Assembly (NCBI GenBank): GCA_003215555.1
Contig: QCKE01000007.1
Span: forward strand, 1 to 64,000
Length of the DNA: 64,000 bases
From: Prochlorococcus sp. AG-409-K04
GTDB lineage: Bacteria > Cyanobacteriota > Cyanobacteriia > PCC-6307 > Cyanobiaceae
Direction: 5' to 3'
In this document: positions 10,868-20,043 of the stretch, in pieces
Layout: each line of letters begins with the position of its first letter
Numbering within the stretch: position 1 is the first letter of the stretch
Position numbers and translations under genes: made by a program
Notes under the pieces: model-generated
Database searches by the model: none
The model's input: the letters and a program-made list of their open reading frames with translations, nothing else
What the model was told of the DNA's origin: nothing

Positions 10868-11566
10868 TTATGGTATCCAATCGTCAGCAGGATTAGGTTT
10901 ATCAAGATCCAATAATGAAGGGAAACAATCCCTTACAAATAGTACGCTTTCCTTTCTGACAATCATCCTACACTCTTCAACAAAAGCAGAACCAATGACT
11001 GGATAGGCATCCAAAGACTCTTCTATACCTTCTCTTAAAGGTTTCCAATTTTTGCTAAGCTTAGGATCAAGCGACTTAAATGCGAGTTCAAACTTAAAAT
11101 CAAAATCAAATATTTCTATATGATCATTAAATTTTTTACTGATCATAGAAATTATGTTTTCTCTAAATGGTATTAGTGCTTTTGCTTTCAAGGTATCTGG
11201 CAATCCTAAAACAGGTTGAAAATAATCAAGTGCTCTTAGCTCTTCTTCTAGCAAGATGCTCCATATCCCTTGGCTTTTAGGTAAAGAATCAAAACTCTCC
11301 TCTGCTTTTCTCATTTCACTAAGAAAAAATAAAATCCTACGATAATAAGATTTATCCTTAATTGGCTTTTTGACACTAGTCTTAGAAGGCTTTATATCAG
11401 GCAAAGAAGATTCTATTTTTTTCAAAAATAAGCGGTCCTCTCTTTCCAAATTTATTGCACCCCATCGTTGCCTGTAATCCCATAAATCAATATAACGAGA
11501 AATATCTTGCAAAGACCACCCAAGCTCTTTTAATTCTTCAGCTCGATGAGTTGTTTCTTTAGCCAC
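10868..11566 (-). CDS. Conserved-type hypothetical protein
   Basis: A 232-residue soluble, charged protein starting at GTG. The N terminus looks helix-turn-helix-like (AEELKELGWSLQDISRYIDLWDYRQRWGAINLERED). The rest is mainly helical with no motif I recognise, and no signal peptide or membrane segment. It lies 43 bp upstream of metY on the same strand and might be cotranscribed with it. The resemblance of the N terminus to a DNA-binding domain is only suggestive. Confidence 0.7.
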   Translation of the reverse strand: MAKETTHRAEELKELGWSLQDISRYIDLWDYRQRWGAINLEREDRLFLKKIESSLPDIKPSKTSVKKPIKDKSYYRRILFFLSEMRKAEESFDSLPKSQGIWSILLEEELRALDYFQPVLGLPDTLKAKALIPFRENIISMISKKFNDHIEIFDFDFKFELAFKSLDPKLSKNWKPLREGIEESLDAYPVIGSAFVEECRMIVRKESVLFVRDCFPSLLDLDKPNPADDWIP

Positions 11567-11648: not shown

Positions 11649-12776
11649 TTATATTATTTCATGAGTTAATAACTGAATCTGCTCCCACTGTAATTTTATG
11701 CTATGAAGAAGTTTCAACTGAACATTTGCTCTTCGAAGGTTATGATAATAATCATCAACATTGAAATAGACATTTCCTCTTAAGAAATCAGTAGCAAATC
11801 TTACAGCCAGTTCAAAAGTAATAGCTCTAATTGAAAAAGGCAAATAATACAACTCATTTTTACTTATTATTTTATCATCATTAGATATATAACCTTCTAT
11901 AGCATTTTTATAAGAAAAAATATCAAATACGACATTTTCAATTTCATCAGTTTCTTCTCCAACGGGGTTACAACAAGACCTGGCACAATCTGCAAGATCA
12001 TACAATAAAAAACCTTCAGAACAAGTATCTAAATCTATAAGTGACAAAACATCTAAGGTCGATTTGTCAAGCAAAAAATTACTTGCTTTTGGATCACCAT
12101 GGATAATGCCAATAGATAGTAAATTCTTTTTCTTAGGCTCTTCAAGTAGAAAAGCTTCATTAAAATTCAAATTAATATAATTTATAATATGATTAATTAA
12201 ATCATCTATATTTTTATTTTGTTGTATGTAAGTAGTAAGAGAAGATCTATATTCTGATAAATAATAAGGTGTATTGTGAAAATTATTTATAGAAGTGGTA
12301 ATATCTTTTGGATTCAAATCAGAAACTAAATAGTGAAATTTAGATAGTCCAAAAAATATTTTTTTAACTAAGCCTGGGTCTTTTATTATATCATAATTAA
12401 TGGATAGATTAATATATTCAAAAGCTCGCCAATAAAATCCATAAGCCACACAAAAAGGATAATTAGTATGAATATCATAAAGCAACTTCGGATGAACCCA
12501 CTGATAAAGTTTATGAGAAGAAAGGCTATTTAATTTGATCCATATTGATTTCTCAATATTAATATAATTTTTAATCAAAACTTCTGGATTCGGAAATATT
12601 TCTGTATTAATACATTGCAAAATAAAAGGATCAATCCTGTCTGGAGATTGTGGCAATATAAGAAATGTATTGTTGATATTTCCAGAATCTAAAGTAGTTA
12701 TTTTTGGTCTGCTAGCAAAATTAAAAAAATTAAATACTACATCTTCTACTATATTAACATTTAGATTTGACTTCAT
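11649..12776 (-). CDS. NahK-like sugar 1-kinase (APH-fold phosphotransferase)
   Basis: A 375-residue protein with the aminoglycoside-phosphotransferase fold. The catalytic loop is IIHGDPKASNFLLD (His226, Asp228, Asn233) and the metal-binding segment is VLSLIDLD (Asp248/Asp250). The N-terminal block (GNINNTFLI, FILQCINTEIFPNPEVLIKN) resembles N-acetylhexosamine 1-kinase NahK more than antibiotic kinases, so a free sugar is the likely substrate. It lies 47 bp downstream of the Rossmann protein, in a cluster with a GgpP homologue. I infer a sugar or osmolyte role. Confidence 0.75.
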   Translation of the reverse strand: MKSNLNVNIVEDVVFNFFNFASRPKITTLDSGNINNTFLILPQSPDRIDPFILQCINTEIFPNPEVLIKNYINIEKSIWIKLNSLSSHKLYQWVHPKLLYDIHTNYPFCVAYGFYWRAFEYINLSINYDIIKDPGLVKKIFFGLSKFHYLVSDLNPKDITTSINNFHNTPYYLSEYRSSLTTYIQQNKNIDDLINHIINYINLNFNEAFLLEEPKKKNLLSIGIIHGDPKASNFLLDKSTLDVLSLIDLDTCSEGFLLYDLADCARSCCNPVGEETDEIENVVFDIFSYKNAIEGYISNDDKIISKNELYYLPFSIRAITFELAVRFATDFLRGNVYFNVDDYYHNLRRANVQLKLLHSIKLQWEQIQLLTHEII

Positions 12777-12823
12777 TTGAATACATTCAAAATTATAATT
12801 TAGAATTATTTAAAAATGAATTT

Positions 12824-14344
12824 TCAATTAAGTAATTCTATAAAATTACTCTTAACTTTGGCATAGTCAGAACCTACTGATGAACAATTTAGTAATGATT
12901 TTTTTGAAAGTATTTCTTCTGTACTAACTGGGTCAAAATGTTTATCTAAAATATATTTCGAAATATGTTTGATAATATCATCATCTTCTATTTGGTCAAA
13001 AAGCATATCCAGCATAAATGATGATTCAGGTCGGACAGATTCTTGGCAATATTTTGTAAGTTTTCGACTATTAGTTAAAATTCTATAGACATCTTTTTTT
13101 ATCTCCTCCGAAGAAAATATTGACATATATAGTAAGTTTATCATCGAAGATTCTTGATAAGGAATAGAGTATTTCTTAAGAATAAATGGCAAATATATAA
13201 GTGAATTAATACCTTCCAAGGCTCCCCTTGATAAACCTCTTTCTTCACACCAAAAAATTAATTCTTCTAAATTATTAGGACATCTTCCAAGCCTGGAAAT
13301 ATTACAAGCCATTATTTCTCCTACTTGGAAGTTGCGCGTTGGTTTACCACTAATAGGAAGCATCATGCTACCTTTAAGATCAGCAACCATAGGAATTAAT
13401 TGAGAAAAAGTATGATCTCTGACTTTTGAAAAACTTTTTTCTTTGGAAATTGCTGCTTCTATTCTTTGAACTCCATAACCAATCTCGGTGAGAGGCAAAG
13501 AACCCTTGGAATAAAAATTATTCCTATCTGGTCTACTCATAGAAACCGTAGCCGCTTGATCCAAGCATTGATTTAGTAACAAAGTTAAAAGCGTAGGCAA
13601 CAATCCAGGGTTATCTCGGTGTACGTAATGGGCAAATCCAGCAAAAATAGAAGAAATATTCTTGACTGCTTTTATATATTGACCTTCTATATTATGAACT
13701 CCCGCAGATACTTGAATATTTGGGGAAAGGTTATTAATTAATCTAGAAGCAAGCAAAGCATTTAAGGGATCTGGATGGCAAAAATTTGCTGTAAAACTGT
13801 CTAAAGGATTCCTTAAAGCTCCATGCCTATGAAAACCAGAAAAAAAAGCTAAATTTGTATACTTTTCACACAATAATGTAGGAGATTCATTCTTTTTATC
13901 ATAAGTAAATGAACCAACTAAACATGCAATTAATACTTCACTTCTATTTACAGTATCTCTAATAGACAAAGCCTCTATCAAATCATTTTCTATATGATTA
14001 CTATTGGCACTTAAAACAACAATCTCACAACTTTGAAACAAATCAGAAAGAGAATAATTATGGCTTTTCCCTCCTTTGTAATAACAAGACATATCCCGAA
14101 TTCTTTGAATGTACTCAGGCTTAAGCTCTGAGAACAATTCTCTAGAAAAAGCTCCAAAAAGTTCTCTGCCAGGTCGAGGTGCTAATAGTAAATTCTTCTC
14201 ATTTGAGTGCATTGCACAGTTATAAGCTAAAGATGCTGGATAAAGCCCTATACTATAAAAACCAACTTTAGCTTTATTTAATTGCTTCAATCTTTTGGCT
14301 ATAGATGATTCATCAGAGGATTTCGAAAAGAAATTATTCTCCAT
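12824..14344 (-). CDS. Unassigned Rossmann-type, dehydrogenase-like protein
   Basis: A 506-residue protein from ATG at 14344 (two more residues if TTG at 14350 is used). The N terminus has a degenerate Rossmann entry (VGFYSIGLYPASLAYNCAMHSNEKNLLLAPRPGRELF) lacking a full GxGxxG. Later blocks (IVVLSANSNHIENDLIEAL; GVHNIEGQYIKAVKNISSIFAGFAHYVH; NQCLDQAATVSM) follow the layout of the glycerol-3-phosphate / 6-phosphogluconate dehydrogenase superfamily. The C-terminal 150 residues are extra. I cannot name an activity. It is divergent from the GgpP homologue and precedes the NahK-like kinase, so a role in glycerol-phosphate or compatible-solute metabolism is an inference. Confidence 0.6.
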   Translation of the reverse strand: MENNFFSKSSDESSIAKRLKQLNKAKVGFYSIGLYPASLAYNCAMHSNEKNLLLAPRPGRELFGAFSRELFSELKPEYIQRIRDMSCYYKGGKSHNYSLSDLFQSCEIVVLSANSNHIENDLIEALSIRDTVNRSEVLIACLVGSFTYDKKNESPTLLCEKYTNLAFFSGFHRHGALRNPLDSFTANFCHPDPLNALLASRLINNLSPNIQVSAGVHNIEGQYIKAVKNISSIFAGFAHYVHRDNPGLLPTLLTLLLNQCLDQAATVSMSRPDRNNFYSKGSLPLTEIGYGVQRIEAAISKEKSFSKVRDHTFSQLIPMVADLKGSMMLPISGKPTRNFQVGEIMACNISRLGRCPNNLEELIFWCEERGLSRGALEGINSLIYLPFILKKYSIPYQESSMINLLYMSIFSSEEIKKDVYRILTNSRKLTKYCQESVRPESSFMLDMLFDQIEDDDIIKHISKYILDKHFDPVSTEEILSKKSLLNCSSVGSDYAKVKSNFIELLN

Positions 14345-14446
14345 TCTCAAATATAGTTAATGTAAGAAACACTATTAAACTCTTATATATATAATAGGAA
14401 CAAAATACAGCTTTGGCAAGCTAATTTCAATATATCAAATCATTTC

Positions 14447-15664
14447 ATGAGCAAAATCAGCAAAGTTAACAAGCTAGAAGTCATGAAGCAAATTATTAAT
14501 TGCAAAAATTTTCTGCTCATTCAAGATATAGATGGTGTTTGCATTCCATTAGTTAAAGATCCTTTAAATAGAACAATTGATTATGAATATATTAACTCTA
14601 TTTATAATTTAAAAAACAAATTTTTTGTTTTAACATGTGGAGAGCATGAAGGGCAAAGAGGTGTTAATCGAATAATCGAAACTGCTTTAAATAGCAAAGA
14701 TCTAGCAAAAATAGAGGGGTTATATTTACCTGGATTGGCAGCATGTGGAATTGAATATCAAAATAATTTTGGTAAAATAAAATTAATCGGAATCAACAAA
14801 AAAGAAATTGATTTTCTTCAAAAAGCTCCGATTATTATAAAAGAGCTTTTAACTAGAGAGTTGGAATTATTGTTTACGGAATTTTCCAAAGAAGAAATTG
14901 AAAACCATATAAATATAGCTGTATGTGATACAAGATTTTCTCCAGCTATAAATCTTAACAGCCTCTTTTTAATTATCAGGAATGATATAACTAAAATGAG
15001 AACTCTTCAGAAAACAATACAGAAAGTAATGGAAAAAGTCATAGAATTATCAAGAAATTATGGGCTTCAAAAATCCTTTTATCTTCATATATCACCAAAT
15101 CTTGGGAAACAAGGAGATAAGGAAATAATTAAACTTGCTACGCATGAAGATATAGGCACCACAGATATACAGTTAATAATAAATGGAGCACTAAAAGAAG
15201 CTGGCCTATTAGTACTTATCAACGAATCAATTAAGATCAAAAGTGGCACAAGGCCTTTTGGTGATGATTTTAATGTTAGGAATGCTCCTAAAACAATCGA
15301 TGGACTAATTTCACTATGCAAAGAAAAGGTGTCACCAAAAGCAATGCCTACTCTGATAGGAGTTGGTGACACAGTAACATCAAGCAAAATTAGTAGTTCA
15401 AATAAATGGTCAAGAGGAGGAAGTGATAGAGGTTTTTTGACATTGATTCAGGAACTTGGCAAGGCATATAATAAAGAAAATAGAATAATATTTGTTGACA
15501 GCAGTCATGGAGAAGTCAATAGGCCTTCGGTTATAAATGGAAATTTGAATGGTATATCTGACCCAGAAGATCCATTGAAATTCGATTTAATTATGAACGA
15601 AGGTCCAAAGGAATATATAAAATGGATTAAATTACTATCGAAAAGAATAGGGACTAAAATATAA
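14447..15664 (+). CDS. ggpP: Glucosylglycerol-3-phosphate phosphatase homologue
   Basis: A 405-residue protein clearly of the GgpP/StpA (salt tolerance phosphatase) family. FLLIQDIDGVCIPLVKDPLNR has the HAD-like DxD (Asp27, Asp29). VLTCGEHEGQRGVNRIIE and EGLYLPGLAACGIEYQ are close to the Synechocystis StpA blocks I recall. GVGDTVTSSK is the late acidic motif. In salt-tolerant cyanobacteria GgpP dephosphorylates glucosylglycerol-phosphate made by GgpS. No ggpS is present in this window, so the substrate here may be another glycosyl phosphate. It runs 16 bp ahead of arsS. Confidence 0.85.
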   Translation: MSKISKVNKLEVMKQIINCKNFLLIQDIDGVCIPLVKDPLNRTIDYEYINSIYNLKNKFFVLTCGEHEGQRGVNRIIETALNSKDLAKIEGLYLPGLAACGIEYQNNFGKIKLIGINKKEIDFLQKAPIIIKELLTRELELLFTEFSKEEIENHINIAVCDTRFSPAINLNSLFLIIRNDITKMRTLQKTIQKVMEKVIELSRNYGLQKSFYLHISPNLGKQGDKEIIKLATHEDIGTTDIQLIINGALKEAGLLVLINESIKIKSGTRPFGDDFNVRNAPKTIDGLISLCKEKVSPKAMPTLIGVGDTVTSSKISSSNKWSRGGSDRGFLTLIQELGKAYNKENRIIFVDSSHGEVNRPSVINGNLNGISDPEDPLKFDLIMNEGPKEYIKWIKLLSKRIGTKI

Positions 15665-15680
15665 AATAATTCTTATACAC

Positions 15681-16610
15681 ATGAATTTTCCAAATATTTC
15701 AAGAAATAAGCTAAGTACATTGCAAGTAAATCTTGGCTATAAATGTAATCAAGCATGCATTCATTGTCATGTAGATGCAAGTCCTTTTAGGAAAGAAATG
15801 ATGGGAATCGAAAATATCGCCTTAATTCCCAAAGTAATCAATCTATATCAAATAGAAACATTAGATCTTACCGGAGGAGCACCAGAGATGCATCCTAGCT
15901 TCAAAGACTTGGTAATAGAAGTTTCGAAGTTAAAGATTAATATAATCGATAGATGTAATCTAACTATTCTAACCGAAACTGGATATGAAAAATTTGCTGA
16001 ATTTTTAGCCGAATATAATATTAATATTGTTGCTTCTTTGCCTTGTTACCTTGAGGAAAATGTTAATTTACAACGAGGCAAAGATGTTTTCAAAAAAAGC
16101 GTTAAGGTTTTAAAATTATTAAATTCATTAGGCTATGGAAAGAGTAAGGAAAAGTTAAAACTAGATCTTGTATACAATCCTATAGGTCCAGTACTACCTC
16201 CTGCACAAGAGATATTAGAAAAAAATTACAAAGATGAGCTATTTAAAAGATACAATATTGTTTTCAACAACTTATTTGTTCTTGCCAATATGCCTATAAA
16301 GAGATTTTCGTTATATTTAGATAAATTGGGTAAACTCAATGAATATGAGATGCTACTGCAAAACAATCATAACAATATAAATCTCGATTCCGTAATGTGT
16401 AAAAACACATTAAGTGTTGATTGGAAAGGTAATCTATTCGATTGCGACTTCAATCAGCAATTAGGTTTAGCAAGTAATTTATTTCCTAAAACATTAAAAG
16501 ATTTGGCTGATAAAAAAATTGATCTAAATGGTATTAATATAAATGTAGGAAAACATTGTTTTGGATGCACAGCTGGAAATGGCTCCAGTTGCGGGGGTGC
16601 TCTAAGTTAA
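15681..16610 (+). CDS. arsS: Radical SAM enzyme of arsenosugar biosynthesis (ArsS type)
   Basis: A 309-residue radical SAM protein. The cluster-binding motif is CNQACIHC (Cys22, Cys26, Cys29), with the C-terminal Cys region of the DUF3641 type (CKNTLSVDWKGNLFDCDFNQQLG and CFGCTAGNGSSCGGAL). LDLTGGAPEMHPSF is the GGE-like SAM site. ArsS adds a deoxyadenosyl group to methylated arsenic to form arsenosugars. The length and layout match. No arsM methyltransferase is adjacent. It follows ggpP by 16 bp, probably in one transcript. Confidence 0.88.
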   Translation: MNFPNISRNKLSTLQVNLGYKCNQACIHCHVDASPFRKEMMGIENIALIPKVINLYQIETLDLTGGAPEMHPSFKDLVIEVSKLKINIIDRCNLTILTETGYEKFAEFLAEYNINIVASLPCYLEENVNLQRGKDVFKKSVKVLKLLNSLGYGKSKEKLKLDLVYNPIGPVLPPAQEILEKNYKDELFKRYNIVFNNLFVLANMPIKRFSLYLDKLGKLNEYEMLLQNNHNNINLDSVMCKNTLSVDWKGNLFDCDFNQQLGLASNLFPKTLKDLADKKIDLNGININVGKHCFGCTAGNGSSCGGALS

Positions 16611-19014: not shown

Positions 19015-20043
19015 CTACAAGTTTATCAAGATATCTTCTCCCTTGATTTTTTCGATCAAGGCTTTAGAAAGATCCCAAAGTTCTTTTGCCTTAAGCTCAT
19101 CACTAGCTTCTAAACTTACATCAACTTCCTCAAAATGCATTTTACCAGGCATTTTTATTTGGTTTGAAAAATATCTAAAATCTTTTTTTAGATACTTATT
19201 TGATATAGATAAATCCTTAAGGATCCTTCCAGCAAAACGTGGATCTTCTGTTAATTTCAATAAATCTCTTGCAAAAAAAGCAAAAACCCTTTGACCGATT
19301 TCATTATATTTTCTACTGTATCTAAAAAACCCAGATTTACTTCGAGGTATTACTAATCCTGGTGCCCAGCATATTACTGGCATATAAATTTTATTTTTTT
19401 TCAATCTTCTAGATAATTCTTTTCCAAAAAGTACATTACATAATTTACTATCTTTATATGCTTTATCTGCATCAAATATAGAACTACCATCTACCATCAG
19501 AAAATCTTGATAATTCCTCAATCCATCCAAATTACCAAGATTTGCTTGATTTCCTATTCTACCACCAGAGGATTTAGGATTATGAACTTCTGATGCAGTT
19601 ATTATAATTCTTGGAGATTGAGAGTCTAATAATAAGGGTAGAACAGATAGACAAAGATAATAATGGCTAAGATGATTAACCGCAAAAGTTAATTCAATAT
19701 TTTGAGTTGATCTTTTAACATTTTTAGATCCAGTATATTGAAGTCCAGCATTTAAAACTAAAGTATCAATAACAATTTTACTATCAAGAATATAGTGAAT
19801 AAAATTATCTATGCTATTTAGATCTGACAAATCGACAATATGAAATGAAGCCAATTCATCTATAATATCTTGATTGATATTTTCTTTTAGAAGTGAAGAC
19901 TTTATAGAATCAACTCTTGATCTATTTCTACATAAAATAAGTAGTCGACTTCCAGCTCTTAAAAAATGAATAGTAGCCTGGTAGCCAATACCTGATGTGC
20001 CACCAGTAAGCATTATAAATCTCGTGTGTTCCTTAACAACCAT
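19015..20043 (-). CDS. Short-chain dehydrogenase resembling protochlorophyllide oxidoreductase
   Basis: A 342-residue SDR. The NAD(P) motif is TGGTSGIGYQATIHF, followed by LVLNAGLQYTG. Asn occurs in the AVNHLSHYYL block, and the catalytic Tyr/Lys pair is in AYKDSKLCNVLFG. The long C terminus (ELWDLSKALIEKI) and the NHLSHYYL block resemble light-dependent POR, but the POR-specific Cys residues are not evident. I call it a POR-like SDR and not the chlorophyll enzyme itself. It converges on mscS with 13 bp between stop codons. Confidence 0.75.
   Translation of the reverse strand: MVVKEHTRFIMLTGGTSGIGYQATIHFLRAGSRLLILCRNRSRVDSIKSSLLKENINQDIIDELASFHIVDLSDLNSIDNFIHYILDSKIVIDTLVLNAGLQYTGSKNVKRSTQNIELTFAVNHLSHYYLCLSVLPLLLDSQSPRIIITASEVHNPKSSGGRIGNQANLGNLDGLRNYQDFLMVDGSSIFDADKAYKDSKLCNVLFGKELSRRLKKNKIYMPVICWAPGLVIPRSKSGFFRYSRKYNEIGQRVFAFFARDLLKLTEDPRFAGRILKDLSISNKYLKKDFRYFSNQIKMPGKMHFEEVDVSLEASDELKAKELWDLSKALIEKIKGEDILINL

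Follow-up and report, generated by a model that had tools for sequence, protein, structure and literature searches.

Glycerolipid synthesis starts from glycerol-3-phosphate, the backbone of membrane lipids, and any cell that makes glycerolipids must obtain it. GpsA is the near-universal bacterial glycerol-3-phosphate dehydrogenase (GPDH), while the alga Dunaliella salina, an osmotic glycerol producer, joins its GPDH to a phosphatase domain, and Synechocystis carries the glucosylglycerol system GgpS/GgpP. Earlier surveys of the glycerol-3-phosphate step left it without a gene in Prochlorococcus, with EC 1.1.1.94 lacking an annotation there and in WH7803 (PMC3369817), or assigned it in marine strains to a flavin adenine dinucleotide (FAD)-dependent enzyme (PMC9361551). 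We analyzed a 64,000-nucleotide stretch of Prochlorococcus sp. AG-409-K04 (the window), in which a gene on the minus strand (positions 12824 to 14350 of the window) encodes a 508-amino-acid divergent GPDH-like Rossmann protein. The open reading frame (ORF) begins with TTG, and an ATG two codons inside (14344) is the likelier start. An initial annotation, made from the sequence of the window, had placed this gene with a NahK-like kinase gene, a ggpP homologue, and arsS in a cluster that could make or recycle a glycosyl-glycerol or glycerate osmolyte and may also be linked to arsenosugars. From the predicted fold, conserved residues, and distribution computed here, we propose instead that the 508-residue protein is most likely the GPDH of Prochlorococcus and marine Synechococcus, a probable filling of the gpsA gap that the annotation had missed.

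Predicted fold and active site of the 508-residue protein

We compared an AlphaFold2 model built from a 20-orthologue alignment (pLDDT 84.1, pTM 0.85) with the structures in the PDB. The best 11 Foldseek matches were glycerol-3-phosphate dehydrogenases (E 3.9e-9 to 3.5e-8), as were all of the best 16 PDB entries by VIA-align (Z 20.6 to 27.0, root mean square deviation 2.8 to 3.8, 299 to 334 residues aligned); the first other family, ketopantoate reductase, followed at Z 14.9. Sequence identity to the structural matches was 12 to 15%. The predicted fold is that of a GPDH, in agreement with the label given by the initial annotation, and fold alone is no proof of function.

The conserved active-site residues of GPDH, in human numbering, are Q295, R269, N270, N205, T264, K204, D260, and K120 (PMC12874384). 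When the 508-residue family was aligned to cyanobacterial GpsA, its SG, AxKN, AD, TRN, and EG motifs paralleled SG, ALKN, GD, SRN, and EG, in an alignment that was itself nonsignificant (E 0.28). Residues K230, N231, D324, S328, R339, N340, and E379 were invariant in all 99 sequences of the family; among them are the equivalents of K204, N205, D260, R269, and N270, and the T264 equivalent is an invariant Ser (S328). A His-Arg-His sequence at residues 174 to 176, in the loop after SG, was likewise invariant in the 99 sequences. So were two arginines that follow the second strand, Arg59 and Arg62, and this pair hints at the use of NADPH. The phosphate-binding machinery looks to have been kept, along with some of the carbonyl-handling machinery, and another part looks rebuilt. 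We class the protein as a new subfamily within the GPDH superfamily, one that may work in the manner of GpsA.

Distribution and origin of the gene

We searched 120 picocyanobacterial genomes of one order, including the window's own assembly (1.41 Mb in 38 contigs, 75% complete) and three assemblies of the same genus that are 99 to 100% complete (G002, G049, and G070). The 508-residue protein was found in 99 of the 120, and canonical GpsA (PF07479, in a search where the controls, Synechococcus elongatus among them, matched) in 31. The two were largely complementary: 88 genomes had the 508-residue protein only, 20 had GpsA only, 11 had both, and one had neither. Of the 99 genomes with the 508-residue protein, 88 lacked GpsA; of the 21 without the protein, 20 had it. 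The sole genome with neither, G089, has a 3,152-base contig that stops inside ggpP, just before the expected position of the gene. A Fisher test of this complementarity gave p 5e-14, which makes the evidence look stronger than it is, since related genomes have a single GpsA loss in common. The cellular need for glycerol-3-phosphate is a stronger argument. GlpK and GlpD were each not found in 70 of the 120 genomes, and GpsA, GlpK, and GlpD were all absent from 51; 50 of these 51 carry the 508-residue protein, the sole candidate that we found, and the exception is again G089. The genomes with ggpS (above the cut-off), with glpK, and with glpD form identical sets of the same 50 genomes, which suggests that glpK and glpD serve glucosylglycerol turnover in picocyanobacteria. 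In the published record, gpsA is a freshwater trait, and brackish SC5.2 strains carry both variants of the step (PMC9361551).

Selection on the gene was estimated from 120 pairs drawn from 16 single-cell Prochlorococcus loci, at which the absence of ggpS is taken from the same clade, the genomes themselves being unsearched. The median ratio of nonsynonymous to synonymous substitution rates (dN/dS) was 0.15 for the GPDH-like gene, 0.16 for ggpP, 0.10 for arsS, and 0.27 for the kinase gene, which points to purifying selection maintaining both the GPDH-like gene and ggpP. In a phylum-wide search, the family was found beyond the picocyanobacterial family only in G189, and in GTDB also in Xenococcaceae and MH1_Bin12 metagenome-assembled genomes (MAGs); horizontal transfer is a possible source of these copies. 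At loci L120 (G189), L161, L193, L198, L200, L201, and L204, the gene was present without an adjoining ggpP. Among viral contigs, 43 pattern matches included none that encoded a relative of the 508-residue protein, and a search of PHROGs found none.

The gene's neighborhood ties it to glucosylglycerol. Across a 96-base intergenic region (14351 to 14446, from the ORF coordinates and a reading of the sequence), the window carries ggpP on the plus strand (14447 to 15664), a member of the glucosylglycerol-3-phosphatase family by TIGR02399 (522.7 bits against a cut-off of 365.5) and PF09506 (530.5 bits), with a DxDG motif that is invariant in 21 sequences; a sequence search of solved structures with GgpP gave no match. 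The two genes lie near each other, mostly divergently, across the order. In five genomes (G011, G045, G102, G106, and RCC307 [G086/L179]) the order is ggpS-ggtB-ggtC-ggtD-ggtA, the GPDH-like gene on the opposite strand, ggpP, a GH13 gene (gghA), glpD, and glpK, with no arsS; the labels gghA, glpD, and glpK come from the protein sequences, those of glpD and glpK were confirmed by family searches, and one ggt ORF of the G106 cluster is unlabeled. Because both genes stand inside the ggpS cluster in these genomes, we connect the pair to glucosylglycerol metabolism and not to arsenic. The earlier suggestion that the two belong together and derive from glycosyl-glycerol metabolism is borne out by this arrangement.

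The same suggestion does not extend to an osmolyte made in the window's organism. The initial annotation had seen no ggpS in the window, and a whole-genome search (Glyco_transf_20; TIGR02398) likewise found no ggpS-like match in the window genome or in the three near-complete assemblies of its genus, which are better evidence than the window's own 75% complete assembly. With ggpS, glpK, and glpD not found, production of a glycosyl-glycerol by this route is not supported, and Prochlorococcus MIT 9303, which has ggpP and lacks ggpS, makes no glucosylglycerol (PMC11505929). Over the whole set, GgpP occurs in 100 of the 120 genomes, 51 of them without GgpS; the orphan ggpP of Prochlorococcus is already published and hence known.

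We infer that the 508-residue protein is a nonorthologous replacement of GpsA that was recruited from osmolyte metabolism. In this proposal, a divergent NAD(P)H-dependent enzyme would reduce dihydroxyacetone phosphate to sn-glycerol-3-phosphate, and its original role would have been to supply glycerol-3-phosphate for glucosylglycerol synthesis, beside ggpP in the ggpS-ggtBCDA-ggpP-gghA-glpD-glpK cluster. Canonical GpsA would have disappeared from the ancestors of marine Synechococcus and Prochlorococcus, leaving this enzyme, presumably now essential, to provide the glycerol-3-phosphate that membrane lipids require. Prochlorococcus would later have lost ggpS, glpK, and glpD and kept the enzyme because its lipids need glycerol-3-phosphate, along with GgpP for some substrate; this order of events is the one that we consider plausible.

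Several observations weigh against assigning this function. Neither Pfam nor NCBIfam gave a significant match to the window's 508-residue protein; none of 20 family members matched Pfam, and a single one of the 20 matched NCBIfam NF000942, at E 0.03 only. No solved structure was matched when the family was used as the query of a sequence search. An hhalign comparison with 13 cyanobacterial GpsA proteins stayed nonsignificant in global mode as well, and the correspondence of residues with GPDH rests on motif order together with this nonsignificant alignment. Residue 145, which aligns with Lys120, is Ala in 45, Val in 42, and Ser in 12 of the 99 sequences and never Lys, and the GxGxxG dinucleotide-binding loop is replaced by SxGxxP (Ser33 and Gly35 in 99/99, Pro38 in 97/99). 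The loss of GpsA may also have been one event shared by descent, in which case the 88 genomes do not amount to 88 separate tests. We did not file the protein as GpsA, because the family falls below the cut-offs of the GpsA profiles (PF01210/PF07479; NF000942) and has neither Lys120 nor GxGxxG.

With these points counted, we lean toward the broader view that in marine picocyanobacteria GpsA has been replaced by an enzyme of an osmolyte cluster, belonging to a new GPDH subfamily that works without Lys120. If this is true, the most abundant phototrophs of the ocean rely for their membrane lipids on a gene that formerly served osmolyte metabolism. A single candidate would close the glycerol-3-phosphate gap in a very abundant phototroph and supply a gene for metabolic models. 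Two questions about the orphan ggpP also become separate, since the retention of its neighbor would be explained by lipids and that of ggpP itself would need its own answer. We found no published reassignment of the 508-residue protein in the open-access literature (databases such as Cyanorak lay outside that search).

Alternative explanations and neighboring genes

The alternatives considered here concern separate questions, and the confidence that we attach to them does not sum to one. The protein might have the GPDH fold and reduce another phosphorylated ketone, with glycerol-3-phosphate coming from some other, unrecognized enzyme. The lost Lys120 position and the invariant His-Arg-His at 174 to 176 imply a rebuilt active site, and in the 11 genomes that also have canonical GpsA the protein need not serve lipids. 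We nevertheless judge this explanation unlikely: neither the Arg/Asn pair that binds phosphate nor the catalytic Lys, Asn, and Asp positions vary, the protein is the sole candidate in the 50 genomes that carry it without GpsA, GlpK, or GlpD, and glucosylglycerol makers place its gene among genes that use glycerol-3-phosphate. We give very little credence to a supply of marine glycerol-3-phosphate by FAD-dependent GlpA/GlpD or glycerol kinase, with the 508-residue protein confined to osmolyte metabolism, a possible reading of the survey in which glpA and gpsA appear as variants of a single step (PMC9361551). The presence of GlpK and GlpD in the 50 ggpS-bearing genomes would fit it, but the identity of the three gene sets suggests that glpK and glpD act in glucosylglycerol turnover, and GlpK and GlpD were found in none of the 51 genomes with ggpP and no ggpS (the window genome included), nor in G002, G049, and G070. 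The FAD enzyme credited to marine strains was found in no Prochlorococcus relative of the window. FAD enzymes of the GlpA/GlpD type, moreover, normally oxidize glycerol-3-phosphate. Dihydroxyacetone phosphate reduction by the 508-residue protein stays our preferred explanation of the gene.

For GgpP, a different question arises, namely, whether in Prochlorococcus it took over as the sucrose-phosphate phosphatase in place of the missing Spp domain. This is the leading published idea, proposed together with a truncated spsA and the lack of spp in most Prochlorococcus (PMC11505929), and ggpP is intact there and under purifying selection, at the median dN/dS given above. Against it, GgpP keeps a full profile score for its own family and stays beside a GPDH-like gene that sucrose does not need, although synteny alone could explain the latter. 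We regard this role as possible but doubtful.

Downstream of ggpP by 16 bases lies arsS (15681 to 16610, plus strand), which encodes the radical SAM protein of arsenosugar biosynthesis (TIGR04167, 427.5 bits against a cut-off of 300; CxxxCxxC motif present). An arsenosugar pathway could in principle unite the locus, with the dehydrogenase making glycerol-3-phosphate that is joined to ArsS-derived dimethylarsinoyl-ribose and GgpP removing the phosphate. Glycerol-bearing arsenosugars are known from cyanobacteria, and in 66 of the 74 loci with both genes arsS comes immediately after ggpP. That adjacency does not exceed those of neighboring housekeeping pairs over the loci read, however (F6-MetY, 62/62; MetY-MetA, 58/58; compare GgpP-GPDH-like, 63/80), and in Prochlorococcus the entire block from the SDR gene to metA is conserved, so adjacency within it proves little. 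Several other neighbor pairs of the block are kept equally well or better. ArsS occurs in 120/120 genomes, the 20 without GgpP included, as opposed to 99 for the GPDH-like protein and 100 for GgpP, and the GgpP-GPDH-like pair stands without arsS in the glucosylglycerol cluster. No genome reached the cut-off for ArsM (NF008823), the protein that would supply dimethylarsenite; most scored about 160 to 180 bits, and the window's genus gave a best E of only about 7e-9 to 1e-13, in the range of generic methyltransferases. On the synteny counts, the universality of ArsS, and the lack of a clear ArsM in the genus, we rejected an arsenosugar cluster as the principal explanation and consider the link proposed by the initial annotation highly improbable. 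In several freshwater or brackish genomes (e.g., G032, G046, G079, G080, and G091), an ArsM-like gene adjoins arsS. The sole ArsS of G011, G045, G063, G086, G102, G106, and G115 is divergent (40 to 43% identity to that of the window), lies elsewhere in the genome, and is possibly a second ArsS type.

The kinase gene (11649 to 12776, minus strand) lies 47 bases downstream of the GPDH-like gene. Its product matches Pfam APH (34.1 bits against a cut-off of 23.2), and the family profile matches PDB NahK chains (E 1.2e-70 to 4ocj, over profile positions 4 to 379, a full-length similarity), which places it by sequence in the NahK (N-acetylhexosamine 1-kinase) family. It occurs in 82 of the 120 genomes, is missing from g2, a large Prochlorococcus group that has the other genes, and is present in genomes without GgpP. 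We rejected it as a pathway member, since its distribution is independent of those of GgpP and the GPDH-like gene, and regard it as a conserved neighbor and not an essential part. In the window (contig C7 of assembly G000), none of the four genes is disrupted at the coordinates given, and the initial annotation described them accurately; the two pairs diverge across the 96 bases.

Elsewhere in the block, a 231-residue protein (10868 to 11566, minus strand) without a Pfam or NCBIfam match adjoins MetY in 62 of the 62 loci with both, and the SDR protein (19015 to 20043, minus strand) is a relative of light-dependent protochlorophyllide reductase (TIGR01289, 128 bits against a cut-off of 331). 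Three contigs labeled Gammaproteobacteria (L153, L176, and L195) bear the picocyanobacterial block and are probably misbinned MAG contigs.

Comparison with known systems

Compared with the GgpS/GgpP system of Synechocystis, the locus has a GgpP that is clearly of the same family and, in RCC307-type clusters, a GPDH-like gene at its side, whereas no ggpS, glpK, or glpD was found in the window genome or its close relatives. The GPDH of D. salina (PDB 6iuy) was the best Foldseek match (E 3.9e-9), and the GPDH fold is common to both proteins. In the picocyanobacteria, by contrast, the phosphatase (GgpP) comes from a different family and has its own gene, in divergent orientation. GpsA (PF01210 plus PF07479) resembles the 508-residue family in overall fold over about 300 to 330 residues and in the order and identity of the Lys-Asn, Asp, Arg-Asn, and Glu-Gly active-site elements, and its distribution is complementary. 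The family differs from GpsA in its length (about 505 versus 306 residues, with a C-terminal helical extension) and in having Ala, Val, or Ser at the Lys120 position, SxGxxP for GxGxxG, and an invariant GFHRH loop, and it may thereby show a second way to build the active site of a classic enzyme.

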